Shown: piece by piece, positions 13,329-22,571 of the stretch | How the letters are laid out: each line of letters opens with the position of its first letter | How positions within the stretch are numbered: position 1 is the first letter of the stretch | NCBI GenBank assembly: GCA_018241125.1 | Contig: JAFEEL010000046.1 | Span: forward strand, 1-52,487 | DNA from: Pseudomonadota bacterium | GTDB taxonomy: Bacteria > Pseudomonadota > Gammaproteobacteria > Xanthomonadales > Xanthomonadaceae | Reading direction: 5' to 3' | Length of the DNA stretch: 52,487 nucleotides | Notes under the pieces: generated by a model | Told to the model about the DNA's origin: nothing | Seen by the model: the letters and a program-made list of their open reading frames with translations, nothing else | Database searches by the model: none | Program-made: the position numbers and the translations under genes

Positions 13329-13422
13329 CCCCTCCCCCGCCTGCGGGGGAGGGTTGGGGTGGGGGGTGCCTATGCGCAATATCAGCCCCCATCCCCGCCT
13401 TCCCCCGCACGCGGGGGAAGGG
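13329..13422. repeat. BIME: two REP-like hairpins
   Basis: Hairpin 1 is CCTCCCCCGC-CT-GCGGGGGAGG followed by GTTGGGGTGGGG. Hairpin 2 is CCTTCCCCCGC-AC-GCGGGGGAAGG, preceded by GCCCCCATCCCC. The same two-hairpin unit recurs at 34166-34263 and 43229-43323. Confidence 0.9.
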
Positions 13423-14375: not shown

Positions 14376-15257
<882 letters not shown>

Positions 15258-15284
15258 CGCTTGAATCACTCGGGCGACACCTGC

Positions 15285-15308
15285 AACGGCCCGGGAAACC
15301 GGGCCGTT
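15285..15308 (+). terminator. Hairpin after rpoH
   Basis: A perfect 10-bp stem AACGGCCCGG / CCGGGCCGTT with a GAAA tetraloop lies 27 bp after the rpoH stop. There is no T-run, so it is a weak intrinsic terminator or an RNA-stabilising end. Confidence 0.6.
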
Positions 15309-15409
15309 GGCGTATTCAATAAAGGAAACTTGCATCGGTGCGCCGGCCTGTCGCCTTGACAGCGGGAAAATGTCGGCCATAGCATCAGCGCAACCTTCAG
15401 GGGGCGCCC

Positions 15410-16432
15410 GTGTCAAACTACAATCGCACGATTGTCCTGCTGGCTGCGGCGTGCTTCACCGCAGCCTTGGCGGCTTGCACACAAAACTCCAGCAGCACAG
15501 CGGGCGCATCGCCGGCTGCTTCGTCCACGGCTTCATCGGCGAGTTCCTCAGTTGTCCCGACCGCGGCAGCACCGGCCCAATCGGCCGACGCCGCGGCGGC
15601 CAAGGCGGCGGTCCAAGGGTTCTACGATTGGTACGGGCCGTTCACCAATGCCCCCGACAACAAGGAAGATGTGAGCGCGGTTTTGCGCGATCGCAAGGAC
15701 AGTTTCGACCCTGCCCTCGCGGCGGCCCTTGCCGCTGACGCTGCCGCCAAGGCCAAAGCCGACGGCGAAGAGGTCGGTATCGACTACGACCCGTTCGTCA
15801 ATGCGCAAGACACCTGTGGCAAACAGCAGCGATTCGAAGTCGGTGCCGTCACGCAAACCGGCACCACGGCCACGGTGGAGGTGTATGCCATTTGCGACGG
15901 CAAGAAGGAAGACAAGCCACGGGTGCTGGTGTCGCTGTCCAGCGGCAACGGCAAGTGGGTGTTCTCGGACTTCGGCACCGTCGACGACCCACATCAACTC
16001 AGCAAGGCGCTACGGGACAATGCAGCGTCCGGCGCAGGCGATTCTTCCGCGTCTGCAGGTGGCGGCCCATCGCCTGCGAGCCTTGGCGGAAAGGCCAGCG
16101 CGACAGGACAACCGCTGACGAAAGCCCAGTACGACGCCATCTACAACGATTGCGTGAAAGCTGCCGGGGAAATGAACAACGGAGTGGTGGACGATTGCAC
16201 GGGGAAAGAATCGGATGCCGCCAAACGGGAAATTGCGCAGCGATACAAGGCAATCCACGATTCTTATGCGGGTTTCGACGCACGCAAGGCCGCGCAGTTC
16301 GAAAAGGCCCCGCAGGCGTGGATGCATTCACGAGATGCCGCTTGTGCCTTGGAAGGAGGGCCTGGCATCGAGACATGCCTCACGGACAAAAACGTGGATC
16401 GCGCCATCGAACTTCGCGGCATGGCGCCCTGA
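15410..16432 (+). CDS. Predicted lipoprotein (DUF3828-like plus LprI-like region)
   Basis: 340 residues. The GTG start has AGGGGG upstream. A signal peptide ends in the lipobox LAAC, with C23 as lipidation site, followed by a Ser/Ala-rich linker to about 60. A middle domain (AVQGFYDWYGPF ... TVDDPHQL) resembles the DUF3828 fold. The C-terminal part (YNDCVKAAGEM ... SRDAACALEGGPGIETCL) has paired cysteines like DUF1311/LprI proteins. Expected to be a membrane-anchored periplasmic protein; its function is not known. It is separated from rpoH by a hairpin and lies just upstream of the acyltransferase fusion. Confidence 0.75.
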   Translation: MSNYNRTIVLLAAACFTAALAACTQNSSSTAGASPAASSTASSASSSVVPTAAAPAQSADAAAAKAAVQGFYDWYGPFTNAPDNKEDVSAVLRDRKDSFDPALAAALAADAAAKAKADGEEVGIDYDPFVNAQDTCGKQQRFEVGAVTQTGTTATVEVYAICDGKKEDKPRVLVSLSSGNGKWVFSDFGTVDDPHQLSKALRDNAASGAGDSSASAGGGPSPASLGGKASATGQPLTKAQYDAIYNDCVKAAGEMNNGVVDDCTGKESDAAKREIAQRYKAIHDSYAGFDARKAAQFEKAPQAWMHSRDAACALEGGPGIETCLTDKNVDRAIELRGMAP

Positions 16433-16519
16433 TCGTCAGCAATCACGCGACATCGAGCAGCTGATTCACGCCCCCGACCGGCCCATTCCAAACCCACCTG
16501 CACTGGCGGACCGCAAACC

Positions 16520-19051
16520 TTGGCCGCAGGACGACTTGCCGAACACCACATCGCCGGCCTGGATGGCCTGCGCGCCATCGCGGTGCTGGCGGTACTGCTG
16601 TTCCACGCCGACCTGTACTGGGCGCGCGGCGGCTATCTGGGCGTCGATCTGTTTTTCGTGATCTCCGGATTCCTGATCACCGGCTTGCTCGCCAACGAAG
16701 TCGAGGCCAGCGGGAAGCTCGACATCAAGCAGTTCTACTGGCGCCGCGCCAAGCGCCTGTTGCCGGCGGTGTGGCTGATGATGGCCGCCGTGCTCGTGGT
16801 GGTCTCGCGGCTGGCGGTCGACGCGCTGCCGCGCCTGCGCTCCGATGCGCTGGCCAGCGTGTTCTACGTCACCAACTGGGAGCTGCTGTGGGTTCACGTC
16901 TCGTATTTCGAAGGGATGGGGCGCCCGCCATTGCTGCAACACCTGTGGTCACTGGCGATCGAGGAGCAGTACTACATCGTCTGGGCCATGGCCGTGCCGC
17001 TGGGCTTGCGTCTGGTCAGTCGGCGCTGGCTGATCGTGATCGCGATCGGCTTGGCGGCACTGTCGGCGGCGTGGATGGCGATGCTGGCCGTGCACATCGG
17101 TTATCCGGATCGAGGCGACGCCTCGCGCCTGTACTTCGGCACCGACACACACGGATTTCCCTTGTTGCTGGGCTCGGCGCTGGGATTGGCATGGCGCCCT
17201 GAACGCATCTCCTGGTTGCTGCCGCCCTTCGCCCGCACGTTCTTGTGGATTGCCGGAGTGCTGGCACTGGCGGCATTCGCGGCGCTGGTGGTGGAACTGG
17301 GCGAACAAACGCGCTGGCTGTATCCGTGGGGCTTTCTGCTGGCCGCCGGCGTGGCCGCGTCGCTGATCACGATCGGCTCACATCCGGTTCTGGCATTCGG
17401 GCGCCTGCTCGATGCCGGGCCGATGCGCTGGATCGGCAATCGCTCCTACGGCATCTACCTGTGGCACTGGCCGGTCTACATGCTGACCCGCCCCGGCATC
17501 GACCTGCGGGCCTGGAACGCCAACCAGGCCTTGGCGTTGCGTCTGGCGCTGTCGATCGGGATCGCCGCATTGTCCTACCGACTGGTCGAGATGCCAATTC
17601 GCCGCGGCGCACTGGAGCGCGGCTGGCGGTGGTGGCGCGCACTCGCCGAGCGCCGCAAGGCCGAGCGCCTTGCCGTCGCCCACAAGGCCAACCCGCCAAC
17701 CCGCGCACACCGTCGCGGCTGGCGAACGGCCACCGCTGGCGGCCTTGCCGTGCTGGCCGTCGCTTCGGCGACCACCCTGATCTGGCGTGCCCATGGCCAC
17801 GCGCCGTGGCCCGCGTTGGGTCGACGCGGCGCCGATGTACGCCCGCGGGCGAAAAGTCCGCCGCGCGTCGCCAGCATCGCCCCGACGGTGCTGCCGGCAC
17901 CATCAGCCATTCCCATCCTCACGCCGGTGCAGGCGCCGGTCGAAATCGAGCACCCCGGTACCCCGCCGGTCGTGTCGTATGCCGGCCGCGATTTGACGGC
18001 GGTGGGCGATTCGGTGCTGCTCGGATCGAGCCAGTTGCTGGGCATCACCCTGCACGGCGTGGACATCCACGCCACCGTCGGCTGGCAGGCGGCCGACGTG
18101 CTGGCGCAACTGCGCGACTTGCGCGAACACAAGAAGCTGCGCGCGGTGGTGCTGATCCACCTGGGCACCAACGGCTACGTCTATGAAGAGCAGCTGCGGC
18201 AAATCCTCGCCACGGTGAAGGACTGCCAGCGCGTGGTATTGGTGAACTCGCACGTACCCCGTCGCTGGATGGAAGCCAACAATCAGCTGATCGATCGCCT
18301 CGCCCCACAGTTTCCGAACGTGGTGGTGGTGCGGTGGTCGGACGTATCCGAAGGCCAGCCGGACTACTTCGTCGCCGATGGCGTGCACCTGACCGATCGC
18401 GGCCAGCGCGCTTACATCGGGCAGATCATGCGCGTGGGTCACTTGCTGCCGGACCCGACGAAGGCACCGAACGAGGCCGCGATCGATCCGACAAGAAACT
18501 ACGCCACCGGGGCCGGCGATGCCGCTGCGAGCCTCGTGCTGGCACCACGCGAGGCGGCACCGGACAGCTACTGGAAAAAAATGGCCCAGTGCGAATCCGA
18601 TACGGTCTGGACCCGGCCCGGCCCACGCTCTGGCGGGCTGGCCATCACCTTGGCGGACTGGCTACGCTACGGCGGTTTCACGTTCGCCCGTACTCCCGGC
18701 GAAGCTACGCCCGCCCAGCAGATCGAGATTGCCAACCGCATTTCCACCCAGGGCTGGAAGCTGGCCGACGGCGTGGTGGTGGCGCCCGAGGGGTTCGCCG
18801 GCTGGCGCTGCGTTGCGGCCCTGCCACCGCCCCGAACCAAGACCGATGCCGGGTCGGCGACCACGTTCACGAGCCAAAGCGTGCTCGCGCAATCGTTCCA
18901 TCTGGGCGAACGCGGCGAGGTGGTGCGCGATTTGCAGTTGATCATCGGAACGCCACGCGACGGCATCTACAGCAAGGCCACCCGCAAGAAGCACCTAGCC
19001 TATCTGCAGGAAAACCATCTGCCGATCGAACGGGCCGGCACGGCGCAGTAA
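16520..19051 (+). CDS. Acyltransferase-3 / SGNH / Rpf-like transglycosylase / PG-binding fusion
   Basis: 843 residues, TTG start (no in-frame ATG fits). Residues 1-385 are a multi-pass OafA-type acyltransferase (GLDGLRAIAVLAVLLFHA, FFVISGFLITG, WSLAIEEQYYI, YGIYLWHWPVY). One more helix lies near 395-415 and a Pro-rich linker to 490. An SGNH esterase-like domain has VGDSV (S498), LGTNG and DGVHL. Residues ~687-770 closely follow the resuscitation-promoting-factor transglycosylase fold: YWKKMAQCESDTVW with Glu692, then GGLAITLADW, QQIEIANR, QGWK and GWRCVA. The cysteines C691 and C764 fit the family disulfide. The last ~45 residues resemble a peptidoglycan-binding-1 repeat (HLGERGEVVRDLQ, DGIYSKAT). 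The inferred role is to acetylate and cut or bind peptidoglycan from the periplasmic side. Confidence 0.85.
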   Translation: MAAGRLAEHHIAGLDGLRAIAVLAVLLFHADLYWARGGYLGVDLFFVISGFLITGLLANEVEASGKLDIKQFYWRRAKRLLPAVWLMMAAVLVVVSRLAVDALPRLRSDALASVFYVTNWELLWVHVSYFEGMGRPPLLQHLWSLAIEEQYYIVWAMAVPLGLRLVSRRWLIVIAIGLAALSAAWMAMLAVHIGYPDRGDASRLYFGTDTHGFPLLLGSALGLAWRPERISWLLPPFARTFLWIAGVLALAAFAALVVELGEQTRWLYPWGFLLAAGVAASLITIGSHPVLAFGRLLDAGPMRWIGNRSYGIYLWHWPVYMLTRPGIDLRAWNANQALALRLALSIGIAALSYRLVEMPIRRGALERGWRWWRALAERRKAERLAVAHKANPPTRAHRRGWRTATAGGLAVLAVASATTLIWRAHGHAPWPALGRRGADVRPRAKSPPRVASIAPTVLPAPSAIPILTPVQAPVEIEHPGTPPVVSYAGRDLTAVGDSVLLGSSQLLGITLHGVDIHATVGWQAADVLAQLRDLREHKKLRAVVLIHLGTNGYVYEEQLRQILATVKDCQRVVLVNSHVPRRWMEANNQLIDRLAPQFPNVVVVRWSDVSEGQPDYFVADGVHLTDRGQRAYIGQIMRVGHLLPDPTKAPNEAAIDPTRNYATGAGDAAASLVLAPREAAPDSYWKKMAQCESDTVWTRPGPRSGGLAITLADWLRYGGFTFARTPGEATPAQQIEIANRISTQGWKLADGVVVAPEGFAGWRCVAALPPPRTKTDAGSATTFTSQSVLAQSFHLGERGEVVRDLQLIIGTPRDGIYSKATRKKHLAYLQENHLPIERAGTAQ

Positions 19052-19136
19052 CCGAGCAACCGGTGCCCGCGCCGCAACGCGGCACACGCCTTGGCGCCGC
19101 GAAATTCCGACCGCGCTTTGCGGCCGGCCTGCCGGC

Positions 19137-20753
19137 TCAGCGATTGGCGCTCAACGCCGCCGCCGGCAGCGCAGGCGCCCCGCCGCACGCCACTCCAGCG
19201 CCGGCCCGCGCACAGGGCTGCGCGGTGGAGATCGGCGTGCGCCGCACTTGCCCCTGTGCGAACTTCTGCGCCAATCCGTCCAGCCCTTGATACAGGTCGT
19301 CGCCAAGCCGCACGTAGCCAGCCGCGGTGAAGTGCACGCCGTCGCCGCGCCCCAGACCCTCGGCGATCCAGCGCTTCATCGAGCACGTCCCGCCCATCGC
19401 CTGCTGCCAGTCCCAGAACAACGTCCGCTTGCTCGCCGCCACCTCTTTCTGGATGCGCTGCACGGCGTCCAGATCGGGCGCGCGCAGGCCGCACGATCCA
19501 CGCCGCGACGTCAACGATTCAGGTGCACCCAGGAGCATCACCGCCGCGTTGGGAAAGCGTTGCCGCAAGCGATCGATGGCCGACTCCAGATCAGCGCGCA
19601 CCTGCCCTTCGTCGCCACCCTTGTGGAACGCCTCGTTGGTGCCGTAAGCCAGCGCGATCACGTCCGGCTGCCCGGGATCCATATCCTGCATCCAGCCGCT
19701 GCGCCAGCGATCCCACTGCGACTGTTCGGAACCGTTGATGCCCACCGCCGAGACGATGGCGCCCGGTTGGCCGCCGCTGAGCCACCAACCGCCGATCGCG
19801 GTACCCGGGCTGTGCTCGGCGATCACCACCAGCGGCAAGCGGGCAGTGAGCGTGGCGCTGTGCCATTGACCGTCGGCGGCCGGGCTTTGCAGCGACTGCT
19901 GGCGTCCATCGGCATCGCTGACCGTCAACGGCGCATCGCCCGGCGCCTGGCGGATGATCGCGGTGACCGTCTGCACCGTCGCGCCCTGCTTGGATTTCAT
20001 CGTCAGCACGGCGTGGTCGGCGACCACCCGGGCGATGAATCCACCGAACGGGTAATCGGCCGGCACATTGGTGCGGCTGTTGACCAGCGCCCAACCCTGA
20101 TAGTCGAAGTTGACGCGCGCCAGGCGCTGCCCGGGTACGCTCATGGGCATCGCCCAGCCGATGCCGCCATCGCCCAAGCGGGCCTGCAGGCGTGCACGCA
20201 GTTCTTCGGTCAGAAAATCGCCGGCCGTGTGCGAATCGCCGATCTGCACGTAGCGAAAACTCGCGTTCGGGTCGCGCAGCTTGGCCACGACCGCCGCCGC
20301 GTTGGGATCGCCGTAATCGACCACATCACCGGAAGCAGCGACGGCGGATGCGGACGGCGGCAGTGCCTGCGCCTGGGGAAGCTGCGCCGGCGGCGGGGCC
20401 GCATCGGCAGGCACGGCCGTCATCAGCGGGGGTTGCGCTGGACCACCCGGAATGGACGTCGTCAGCGGCTGCACTTGCGCATCGGGCGGCTGGTGCGCGC
20501 TGACCGGACGCGGCACCGACGCCTCCGGGTAGGAGAGGTCTCTCGTGCAATCGCCGTCCTTGGGCTTCACCTTCTGGCTGACGTACGCGTTGACTCCGTC
20601 CTCGCCCACGCACTTCCACACGGTACCGGCCTGCGCCGAGGGCGCGACCGCAATCGTCAGCGCGCCGGCCAAGGCAAGCGCGGGCAGCAGCCTGACTGTC
20701 GCGCGCGCGGCAAAAACCGTTGGGATGGCAGGTGCGGAGGGTAAACGACCCAT
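19137..20753 (-). CDS. Exported SGNH/GDSL hydrolase with DUF4124-like N-terminus
   Basis: 538 residues from ATG 20753, chosen because it gives a good signal peptide (LLPALALAGALTIAVAPSAQA, cleavage after about 42). A DUF4124-like segment follows (VWKCVGEDGVNAYVS), then a Pro-rich linker. The catalytic domain has YVQIGDSHTAGDF with S174, LAYGTNEAF, and DGVHFTAAGY. The GDSHTAGDF block recalls Ape1-type peptidoglycan O-acetyl esterases; that substrate is an inference. It is convergent with the acyltransferase fusion (86 bp between), suggesting an acetylation and de-acetylation pair. Confidence 0.8.
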   Translation of the reverse strand: MGRLPSAPAIPTVFAARATVRLLPALALAGALTIAVAPSAQAGTVWKCVGEDGVNAYVSQKVKPKDGDCTRDLSYPEASVPRPVSAHQPPDAQVQPLTTSIPGGPAQPPLMTAVPADAAPPPAQLPQAQALPPSASAVAASGDVVDYGDPNAAAVVAKLRDPNASFRYVQIGDSHTAGDFLTEELRARLQARLGDGGIGWAMPMSVPGQRLARVNFDYQGWALVNSRTNVPADYPFGGFIARVVADHAVLTMKSKQGATVQTVTAIIRQAPGDAPLTVSDADGRQQSLQSPAADGQWHSATLTARLPLVVIAEHSPGTAIGGWWLSGGQPGAIVSAVGINGSEQSQWDRWRSGWMQDMDPGQPDVIALAYGTNEAFHKGGDEGQVRADLESAIDRLRQRFPNAAVMLLGAPESLTSRRGSCGLRAPDLDAVQRIQKEVAASKRTLFWDWQQAMGGTCSMKRWIAEGLGRGDGVHFTAAGYVRLGDDLYQGLDGLAQKFAQGQVRRTPISTAQPCARAGAGVACGGAPALPAAALSANR

Positions 20754-20931
20754 CGAACGCAGCGGATCGATGGGTGAGCAATGGCGAGCAACCGGAAGCT
20801 TCGCTGAAGGCATCAACATGCGGCCAAAAAAGCCGCCGCCGACTGCGGCGGATCGGGTCAAGTGTAACATCAATGGCGCCTCGCCGGTTGCGCCGCGACC
20901 TGCCGCCGGCACCTGCGCGGGCGCGGGCGCC

Positions 20932-21006
20932 TCAATCCAGATCCACCGGATCGACATCCAGCGACCAGCGCACCTTGCGCGCGGATTTGAGTTCGTAAAG
21001 GTGTGG
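20932..21006 (-). pseudogene. Duplicated 3' end of priA
   Basis: The frame reads MPHLYELKSARK and then VRWSLDVDPVDLD plus stop, matching the PriA C-terminus (IPRLHELKSARK...). Over the last ~66 bp it differs from the real priA end at three positions, all synonymous. It lies 1.77 kb downstream of the intact 3' end on the same strand, in direct orientation, with the YjjJ gene between them. Confidence 0.8.
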
Positions 21007-21104
21007 CATCAGGCTTGGCCGTTGTAAGCTTCTGGGCGCAAGCCGACGGGCTGCGCAACAGCGAAGCGGATCGATCAATTTTCGTGCGCAGCAGACCATC
21101 AGGA

Positions 21105-21128
21105 TCCCGGCGTTCGCCGGGATGACGT
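21105..21128. repeat. Intergenic hairpin of the CCCGGCG...CGCCGGG type
   Basis: GATCCCGGCGTTCGCCGGGATGACG is a common dispersed repeat type. Related hairpins occur at 41716-41812. Confidence 0.55.
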
Positions 21129-21191
21129 GCAAAACCGGTTTTCGCGGTTCCATCGACGAGCATTTCGCCGGCGCCGTGGCATCCACTCACC

Positions 21192-22571
21192 TCACGCCCG
21201 CCCTGCCGCCGCATCCAGCGCGGCCAGCGCCTGCCGCGCGATGGCGACGAAATCCGCGTTGATGGCGCGGTGGCCTGCCACCCTGCGCCAGAACGCGCGC
21301 GCCATCGCCGCCGCCTGCATCCAGTCCGCGCGACACTCCGGCGGCGGCGGGACGATCACCGGTTCGCGCGCCAGCACTTCCCCGCCAGCGGTGGGACGAA
21401 ACGCCATCGGCAGCATGTCGTAGGCCGGAGCCAGCGCCGGCGGGCGGGCATCGGCGAGCAGCAGGCCGGCGTTGCCCAGATGCATGTCGGTGTTGCCGAT
21501 CAGCGTGCCGAACCAGGACAGCAGGCGCATCCGGTGGGCATTGTCGGCGTCGAGCCAGCGGTCGCGTTGCAGGGTGTCGGCGTAGCGCCACCAGTCGAGG
21601 CGGCCGTTGCCGTGGAAGGCGGCGTCCACCGCGGCGAGACTGGCGAACCCGCGCCGGCCCAGACACGGCGTGCGGTCGAAGCGCGTGGATTCGAGGAAAA
21701 CGCGGCCATCGGCGATGACCAGATCCGATGGCGCGGCTGCGACCCCGTGTGCGCGCAGGACGCTGGCCGCGATGTGCTCGGCGCGCAGCAGGTCGGCCCA
21801 GCGTTTGGCGGCCGCGCTGTCGCCACGCGGGCTGAACTTGACGATCACCGGACGCAGGCCATCGCCATCACGCAAAGTGACGGCGAACTTGGGTTGCTCG
21901 CCGCCCGCCGACGAACCGACCGCCTCGCCACGCAAGGTGGCCTCGGCCAGCGTGGGGTACTGCGCCTTCCGGCGCGCGGCATCGATGACGCCGGTCGGCG
22001 CAGTGATGGCCCGCTGGGCGCGTTGCAGGGCCGCTTCGCCGAGTACGTAATCACCCAGCAGATCGTCGCCGTGGCGCAGCAAGGCCAGCAGCACGTCGTC
22101 GCCGTGCCAGGTGCCAAGATCCGCCGGTGCGCCGATGTCGGCGGCGACCCGGCGCGCGAACGCGCGTCCCAGAAACCCCTGCGGTCGCTGGTCGTCGAGG
22201 AACCACGGCAGGCCAGGGTACAGGCCATCGGCGAACGCGTTGGCGTGCGGGGACGGCGTGGCAGTGGCGGGATCGAGCAAGAAGCGCTCGCCGTGCAAGG
22301 CGGTCAGTTCGCCGGAGCGATGGGCGCGGCCGCGATCGTCGATGCGGTACAACGGCCAGCGACCGCCTTCGCGTCCGACCTCGCGCGCCAGCGCGTAGCG
22401 GGTCGCACGCGCCCGCCCGATCCGCGCGATCCGCGTTCCGCCGGTGGCCAGCAGCCGCGAGACGGTGGGTTGGCTGATGCGAAGGCGCGTGCCGATTTCG
22501 TTCGCGGTCAGCGCGCCGGCGTTGCGCAGCAGGCTTTCCAGATGCTGGAAGCGGTGTTCGATCACGGACAA
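21192..22571 (-). CDS. yjjJ: HipA-family kinase-like toxin, YjjJ/HipH type
   Basis: 459 residues. The N-terminus is a winged-helix DNA-binding region (ANEIGTRLRISQPTVSRLLA, about 24-43), so a HipB-like regulator is built in. The HipA kinase core follows: SSAGGEQPKF glycine-rich loop, LVIADGRVFLESTRFDR, catalytic GTLIGNTDMHLGNAG, and metal-binding PAYDMLPM. HipA kinases phosphorylate cellular targets and slow growth; the target of this type is unsettled. The start is TTG 22571 or GTG 22565; a stop codon immediately upstream rules out a longer protein. It lies between two copies of the priA 3' end, suggesting insertion. Confidence 0.85.
   Translation of the reverse strand: MSVIEHRFQHLESLLRNAGALTANEIGTRLRISQPTVSRLLATGGTRIARIGRARATRYALAREVGREGGRWPLYRIDDRGRAHRSGELTALHGERFLLDPATATPSPHANAFADGLYPGLPWFLDDQRPQGFLGRAFARRVAADIGAPADLGTWHGDDVLLALLRHGDDLLGDYVLGEAALQRAQRAITAPTGVIDAARRKAQYPTLAEATLRGEAVGSSAGGEQPKFAVTLRDGDGLRPVIVKFSPRGDSAAAKRWADLLRAEHIAASVLRAHGVAAAPSDLVIADGRVFLESTRFDRTPCLGRRGFASLAAVDAAFHGNGRLDWWRYADTLQRDRWLDADNAHRMRLLSWFGTLIGNTDMHLGNAGLLLADARPPALAPAYDMLPMAFRPTAGGEVLAREPVIVPPPPECRADWMQAAAMARAFWRRVAGHRAINADFVAIARQALAALDAAAGRA

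Follow-up and report, generated by a model that had tools for sequence, protein, structure and literature searches.

How peptidoglycan O-acetylation is kept in step with lytic cutting in bacteria is unsettled; the separate enzymes concerned are believed to act together in complexes. The gene studied here raises the question of whether the two activities might be joined in one protein. It lies in a stretch of 52,487 nucleotides (the window) from a member of the Xanthomonadaceae, and the original prediction read its product as a fusion of an OafA-type acyltransferase, an SGNH domain, a domain with the pattern of resuscitation-promoting factors (Rpf), and a PG-binding repeat. Our follow-up supports this reading in part: it upholds the Rpf domain, its Glu692 and cysteine pair, and the recurrence of the fusion, gives weak support to the PG-binding part, and replaces the OafA label.

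A four-region fusion in two families

The features of the gene are as follows.

16520 to 19051, forward strand: the whole fusion gene, AT3, transmembrane segment, SGNH, Rpf, and PG-binding-like domain, 843 amino acids (open reading frame, Pfam, homologs)
16553 to 17575, forward strand: AT3 acyltransferase domain, OatA type, residues 12 to 352 (PF01757, AT3 tree, invariant residues)
17726 to 17791, forward strand: extra hydrophobic segment, residues 403 to 424 (hydropathy scan; AT3-SGNH topology rule in the available text of PMC9558356)
17999 to 18433, forward strand: SGNH O-acetyltransferase domain, OatA-C type, residues 494 to 638 (match to 6wn9, SGNH profile, invariant residues)
18557 to 18823, forward strand: Rpf (Transglycosylas-like) domain, residues 680 to 768 (PF06737, RpfC match, RpfB fold, invariant residues)
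18593 to 18595, forward strand: codon for Glu692, which aligns with the CE-motif Glu of Rpf proteins (alignments, nine of nine fusions)
18875 to 19021, forward strand: degenerate PG_binding_1-like domain, residues 786 to 834 (profile-profile comparison, fold)

The frame begins with TTG, and because no clear ribosome site was seen upstream of this codon, the start is unsure. Full-length homologs, each 57 to 61% identical to the window protein, occur in eight further genomes with all four regions in the same order, which, together with matches to Pfam and to solved structures, confirms the four-region fusion as observed. The hydrophobic segment at residues 403 to 424 is probably an 11th transmembrane helix that places the rest of the protein in the periplasm, a location that we infer from hydropathy. 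The predicted fold from the SGNH domain to the C terminus was poor (pLDDT 45) and uninformative on domain arrangement.

Genome contigs were scanned with the C-terminal 204 residues and gave 13 loci. Two are from Dyella subtropica (60%) and Dyella flagellata (62%), and the other 11 are partial matches to actinobacterial Rpf proteins (35 to 43%). The two Dyella proteins (836 and 860 amino acids) align with the window fusion over their full length. When the whole protein was searched against 60 relatives, AT3-level matches were found in 29 genomes besides its own, none of them reaching past residue 456.

Further surveys covered samples of genomes, with scoring limited to the best first-look candidates. 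A query that aligned three C-terminal parts matched seven genomes strongly among 398 of the order, own genome included (9 reached an E value of 0.001, of which two were weak). In the Dyella-containing family, it matched 8 of 233 genomes strongly, and among 369 genomes of the class, it matched the window genome alone, along with one further weak match with stops. The PF06737 model rose above its cut-off in the window genome alone, both among 297 genomes of its own family (4 at 0.001) and among 398 of the phylum (2 at 0.001). Several weaker candidates were rejected, namely, the PF06737 matches in G096, G001, G121, and G671 (21 to 23 bits, below the cut-off, with no frame carrying an Rpf-like CE motif) and the alignment-query matches in G162, G814, and G1190 (19.5 to 24.6 bits, partial, two with stops).

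In all, nine distinct full-length fusion proteins were found, one in the window and eight in the Dyella-containing family, with two of the eight also in public records of D. subtropica and D. flagellata. Dyella belongs to the Rhodanobacteraceae, in the Lysobacterales, and the window genome to another family of the same order; the search for the same fusion in other Xanthomonadales thus finds it in Dyella-family genomes. These findings bear on whether the fusion is an accident of one genome, whether by misassembly, contamination, or a fortuitous join. Such an accident might be suspected from the solitary match among 297 family members and from the position of the gene in an inserted block. Nevertheless, the identical domain order along the full length in eight genomes of another family, the two public records, and the native flanks of the block leave it a vanishingly small probability, and we rejected chance or artifact on the strength of the eight further homologs. 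A phage or plasmid origin was likewise rejected: a pattern-limited search of viral contigs, with the C-terminal half as query, gave no relative, and matches in plasmids (49 records) and phages (238 records) were nearly all actinobacterial by organism tallies, with none covering 80% of the query.

Selection keeps all four domains. Across the nine fusions, invariant columns make up 49% of the AT3, 53% of the SGNH, 52% of the Rpf, and 45% of the PG-binding-like domain and 5 to 18% of the three linkers. For four closer pairs, dN/dS was 0.04 to 0.20 in AT3, 0.02 to 0.21 in SGNH, 0.12 to 0.22 in the PG-binding-like domain, and 0.13 to 0.36 in the long linker.

The acyltransferase half is of the OatA type

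The AT3 domain matches Pfam Acyl_transf_3 (PF01757) over residues 12 to 352 at 2.4e-30, and H29, R75, R76, R79, E148, and E149 are identical in nine of nine fusions. NCBIfam gave for this half a mycobacterial SucT model as its best match (84 bits against a cut-off of 1275) and no OatA model. The SGNH domain (residues 494 to 638) matches a solved chain named "Acetyltransferase," 6wn9, at 6e-14; we take this chain to be the C-terminal domain of Staphylococcus aureus OatA. Pfam Lipase_GDSL_2 on residues 514 to 631 stayed under its cut-off. Five residues are identical in all nine proteins: S498, D620, and H623, as the catalytic Ser, Asp, and His, and G521 and N551, as the oxyanion-block Gly and Asn.

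A profile built from the nine SGNH domains matches proteins of Bacillus badius (4.9e-26) and Miltoncostaea (1.3e-22) and none of 13 proteobacterial AT3 proteins (13 of 19 loci, 6 having been removed by a motif and length filter). A midpoint-rooted tree of 28 AT3 rows, for which five Gram-positive rows and Thioclava were chosen from 20 listed plasmid matches, puts the nine fusions in one group (100/100). The fusions fall with four Gram-positive rows, split from all 14 proteobacterial rows (100/99); a single Rhodococcus row groups with the proteobacterial ones. Among the best 20 of 403 plasmid matches, those spanning AT3 and SGNH come from Miltoncostaea, Listeria, Bacillus, Enterococcus, Staphylococcus, Fusobacterium, and Aerococcus, and proteobacterial rows have AT3 coverage only. 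The SGNH model PF19040 has no match in the fusion up to an E value of 1. The match to 6wn9, the SGNH profile, and the position in the AT3 tree led us to reject the OafA-type identity in favor of an OatA type. Most likely, Gram-positive bacteria were the source of both AT3-SGNH and Rpf, which were joined before or after transfer.

The type of transferase also bears on its target. The Gram-negative AT3-SGNH proteins described in the available text of PMC9558356 include O-antigen and pilin-glycan transferases, and so the acceptor might be another envelope or secreted polysaccharide (lipopolysaccharide O-antigen or exopolysaccharide), as for OafA-type proteins. We regard this as improbable given that both AT3 and SGNH are of the OatA type, that an Rpf and a PG-binding-like domain follow, and that Ape1 (in the window) or an Ape1-like SGNH gene (in the eight others) adjoins the fusion. 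Peptidoglycan is the more probable substrate.

An altered Rpf domain and a PG-binding-like domain

The Rpf domain proposed at about residues 680 to 775 is borne out by Pfam Transglycosylas (PF06737), which matches residues 680 to 746 at 3.6e-11 and 44 bits against a cut-off of 27; three of the nine full-length fusions were scanned, and all three match (44.0, 44.7, and 45.0 bits). This part also matches RpfC (2n5z) at 2.7e-4 with the whole protein and 3.1e-5 with the C-terminal stretch alone. In NCBIfam, the C-terminal part matches RpfC and Rpf models, which, like SucT, stay far under equivalog cut-offs. The best alignment of the predicted fold is to RpfB, in keeping with an Rpf-like fold. E692, C691, and C764 are identical in nine of nine fusions, as are Trp685, Trp697, Gly705-Gly706-Leu707, Trp714, Trp746, and Trp762. 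With the profile match, the RpfB-like predicted fold, and an invariant Glu692, the earlier reading is not refuted. As for its suggested link to dormancy exit, none of the results bears on it. The dN/dS values of the four closer pairs (0.06, 0.10, 0.28, and 0.12) indicate that the domain is under purifying selection.

Compared with actinobacterial Rpf, the strand after the Glu is two residues shorter, and the N[T/S]GNGYYGGLQF motif is gone. Residue 708 is Gly, Ala, or Asp in place of Gln and residue 713 is Asp in place of Thr in all nine fusions, and extra residues precede the last Trp-x-Cys. Because this strand differs from that of Rpf, activity may be lost or changed. Nevertheless, the Gln of GGLQF is also missing from RpfE (4cge), which has GGLRF, and the N[T/S]GNGYYGGLQF...TW strand is therefore not strictly defining for Rpf. 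As a separate observation, within residues 705 to 714 (18632 to 18661), Asp713 replaces the Thr of the TW motif in all nine proteins; a second acid near the predicted catalytic Glu, it could favor hydrolysis over transglycosylation.

The PG-binding repeat of the original prediction fared less clearly. Pfam PG_binding_1 (PF01471) matches none of the nine fusion homologs, and a PDB profile search found no PG-binding domain. By contrast, a profile of the region scored 26.05 against the PG_binding_1 profile, the best of 100 column shuffles reaching 14.17, and so a PG-binding domain at residues 786 to 834 is weakly supported.

Could the Rpf domain be dead, or nearly so, and serve with the PG-binding-like domain only to target the O-acetyltransferase? 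The changed active-site strand in nine of nine fusions is consistent with this idea, as are the PG-binding-like domain that comes next and the chemical awkwardness of joining a lytic enzyme to an acetyltransferase. In Neisseria, moreover, Ape1 depends for optimal function on a lytic transglycosylase that is its binding partner (PMC7083599, available text). Against it stand the invariance of Glu692 and both cysteines, purifying selection on the domain (dN/dS of 0.06 to 0.28, compared with 0.02 to 0.21 for AT3 and SGNH and 0.13 to 0.36 for the long linker), and the similar departure of RpfE. On balance, we think targeting alone unlikely, and a strand-processing module remains our preferred reading.

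Neighboring genes and the inserted block

The surroundings of the fusion in the window comprise the following.

15263 to 21191, no strand: inserted block with the LprI gene, the fusion, and Ape1 (breaks in DNA homology, gene order)
15356 to 15385, forward strand: promoter-like site TTGACA-18-TAGCAT before the LprI gene (10 of 12 matches, by pattern only)
15410 to 16432, forward strand: lipoprotein with DUF3828-like and LprI (lysozyme inhibitor) domains (LprI PF07007 at 7.4e-7; lipobox-like LAAC)
19137 to 20957, reverse strand: Ape1-type peptidoglycan O-acetylesterase, 606 amino acids, convergent neighbor (Ape1_N PF22753, 4k3u)

The Ape1-type gene lies 85 bp beyond the fusion stop, on the other strand. 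Its product matches Ape1_N (PF22753) at 1.2e-28 and 4k3u, presumably Neisseria Ape1, at 5.2e-70. Among 40 relatives (five of the same genus, own included), Ape1_N was found in one, the window genome itself. On the other side, the LprI lipoprotein gene lies 87 bp upstream of the fusion start on the same strand and may belong to the cassette as a third gene; none of the eight Dyella-family loci showed LprI next to the fusion. Two promoter-like sites were found in the region against 0.6 expected.

The block is flanked by an rpoH-type sigma factor gene on one side and a hipA-like gene on the other. DNA likeness to the same-genus genomes G095 and G068 ends at 15255 to 15263 and, except for one short repeat, resumes only at 21191 to 21192, and both carry about 1 kb of different DNA between the two flanking genes. 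The LprI, fusion, and Ape1 genes are absent from the fetched stretches of G095, G068, and G025 (three of three). In G025, the upstream flank is present and the downstream flank was not found, and the fragmented state of G121 precluded a judgment. Because homology breaks at its edges and none of the three genes occurs in those stretches of G095, G068, or G025, the lipoprotein, fusion, and Ape1 genes form one block here. Its GC content (63 to 70%) resembles that of the flanks and so gives no sign of recent foreign origin.

Several side observations concern this region. The interval between the rpoH-type and hipA-like genes differs among loci (window 15263 to 21191, L097 3413 to 4470, L098 3503 to 4570) and looks like an insertion hotspot. 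The L098 interval holds two small genes, which we take to resemble a DinJ/YafQ-type toxin-antitoxin pair. A short intergenic repeat at the block edge (window 20923 to 21008) is 83% identical to an L097 copy and also occurs elsewhere in the G095 stretch; one of its reading frames contains VIPANAGI, a string that also occurs in a widespread bacterial repeat. A 36-base element (window 13386 to 13421) has several copies in the same-genus loci L097 and L098.

In all eight Dyella-family genomes, an SGNH gene of 449 to 461 amino acids lies directly downstream of the fusion on the same strand, overlapping it in five and 0 to 21 bp apart in three. The partner shares 31% identity with Ape1 over 138 residues and matches 4k3u at 8.6e-12 in the SGNH part alone, and the window Ape1 as query matches it in eight of eight. 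By sequence, it is a distant relative of Ape1 and may act as an esterase or as a PatB-like transferase. An esterase role is uncertain because Ape1_N had no match in the one Dyella partner tested, the likeness is confined to SGNH, and PatB-type transferases look similar. Upstream of the fusion, a 629-amino-acid gyrB/parE-type gene (Pfam-tested in one) is found in seven of the eight. The setting in G1066 is different: there, the fusion and Ape-like pair adjoins a glycine-rich frame of 1523 amino acids on the other strand (L057 11367 to 15938) that looks like an autotransporter.

PatA/PatB is the Gram-negative route to peptidoglycan O-acetylation described in the available text of PMC6174289. A search for MBOAT (PF03062) matched one of 12 genomes, G1066, and none of the window genome, the seven other Dyella-family carriers, and three same-genus genomes. 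The described route therefore seems absent in eight of nine fusion carriers.

A proposed mechanism

We propose that the fusion is probably a Gram-negative OatA-type peptidoglycan O-acetyltransferase with a built-in strand-processing module. AT3 would take acetyl from cytoplasmic acetyl-CoA and hand it across the membrane, and the periplasmic SGNH domain (Ser498, Asp620, His623) would transfer it to the C6-OH of MurNAc. The PG-binding-like and Rpf domains may keep the transferase on glycan strands, where the Rpf domain, via Glu692, might cut or grip those still unacetylated. Because C6 acetylation would block such cutting, the protein would hold its own lytic activity in check, and the adjoining Ape1-type esterase would strip acetyl and reopen strands for turnover. 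The domains, the residue conservation, the gene linkage, and the lack of a PatA-type MBOAT match in eight of nine carriers are observed; the substrate, the periplasmic side, the coupling, and an esterase role for the Dyella partner are inferred.

According to the available text of PMC6174289, acetyl is carried through the membrane by OatA and placed on MurNAc C6 by its SGNH domain; the C6 acetyl blocks lysozymes and lytic transglycosylases, the latter requiring a free C6-OH; and Ape removes it. An OatA-type protein with an Ape1-type neighbor and a lytic-type domain fits this logic, and the Neisseria case (PMC7083599) offers a precedent, between separate proteins, for physical coupling of cutting and acetyl editing. 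Acetylating and lytic activities in one chain nevertheless oppose each other, which counts against our reading. A stronger version holds that one polypeptide writes the acetyl mark and carries a lytic enzyme blocked by that mark, so limiting itself, and that, with an Ape1-type eraser, it forms a full acetylation, cutting, and deacetylation module that replaced PatA/PatB in some Lysobacterales; we offer it tentatively, as a possibility that falls somewhat short of an even chance.

Significance

If its Rpf domain cuts, the fusion would be, to our knowledge, the first PF06737-type muralytic enzyme of a Gram-negative bacterium. The fusion is real, is conserved, and lies in a peptidoglycan O-acetylation setting; its parts are known already, while the combination, the host, and the partner genes appear to be new. 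Two opposing activities are apparently joined in one protein beside an esterase-type gene, in culturable Dyella, and so their coupling is directly testable by single mutants of one gene. The fusion also supplies an OatA-type transferase in Gram-negative bacteria, for which the available text of PMC6174289 describes PatA/PatB as the route.

The available text of PMC1084345 describes Rpf as confined to actinobacteria as of 2005; our finding places an Rpf domain in Gram-negative bacteria. Later uses of the term are looser than PF06737: as far as their available text goes, PMC11298755 counts many lytic-transglycosylase-like domains as "Rpf-like," hence reported in Proteobacteria, and PMC11356341 treats YeaZ of Gram-negative bacteria as an Rpf analog. 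The AT3 fusion partners listed in the available portions of PMC9558356 and PMC9833829 are SGNH and alanine racemase, with others in Eukarya. No description of an AT3-SGNH-Rpf fusion was found in the open-access literature by titles and abstract openings.

Comparison with known systems

Four known systems resemble the fusion in part. OatA, the Gram-positive peptidoglycan O-acetyltransferase, shares AT3 followed by an OatA-C SGNH domain of about 150 residues with Ser, Asp, and His kept, and the AT3 of the fusion groups near Gram-positive rows. Unlike OatA, the fusion has a Gram-negative host, extra Rpf and PG-binding-like domains, and coupling with an Ape1-type gene; per the available text of PMC6174289, such coupling is not known for OatA. 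OafA/OafB-type transferases share the order of AT3 and SGNH; in contrast, the fusion has no PF19040 match, and its SGNH profile matches none of the 13 proteobacterial AT3 proteins.

Rpf proteins (PF06737) share a profile match above the cut-off, a predicted RpfB-like fold, the Glu, and the cysteine pair. However, the Rpf domain of the fusion is joined to a membrane acyltransferase outside Actinobacteria, its active-site strand is shortened and changed, and it has extra residues before the last Trp-x-Cys. Finally, in the PatA/PatB/Ape1 (OAP) cluster, as here, an acetyltransferase adjoins an Ape-type or Ape-like SGNH gene. The Ape1 esterase gene of that cluster is present in the window, and the Dyella partner is alike at the SGNH level only. 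Unlike the MBOAT-plus-SGNH pair of the OAP cluster, whose PatA is without a match in eight of nine carriers, the fusion transferase is a single AT3-SGNH protein.
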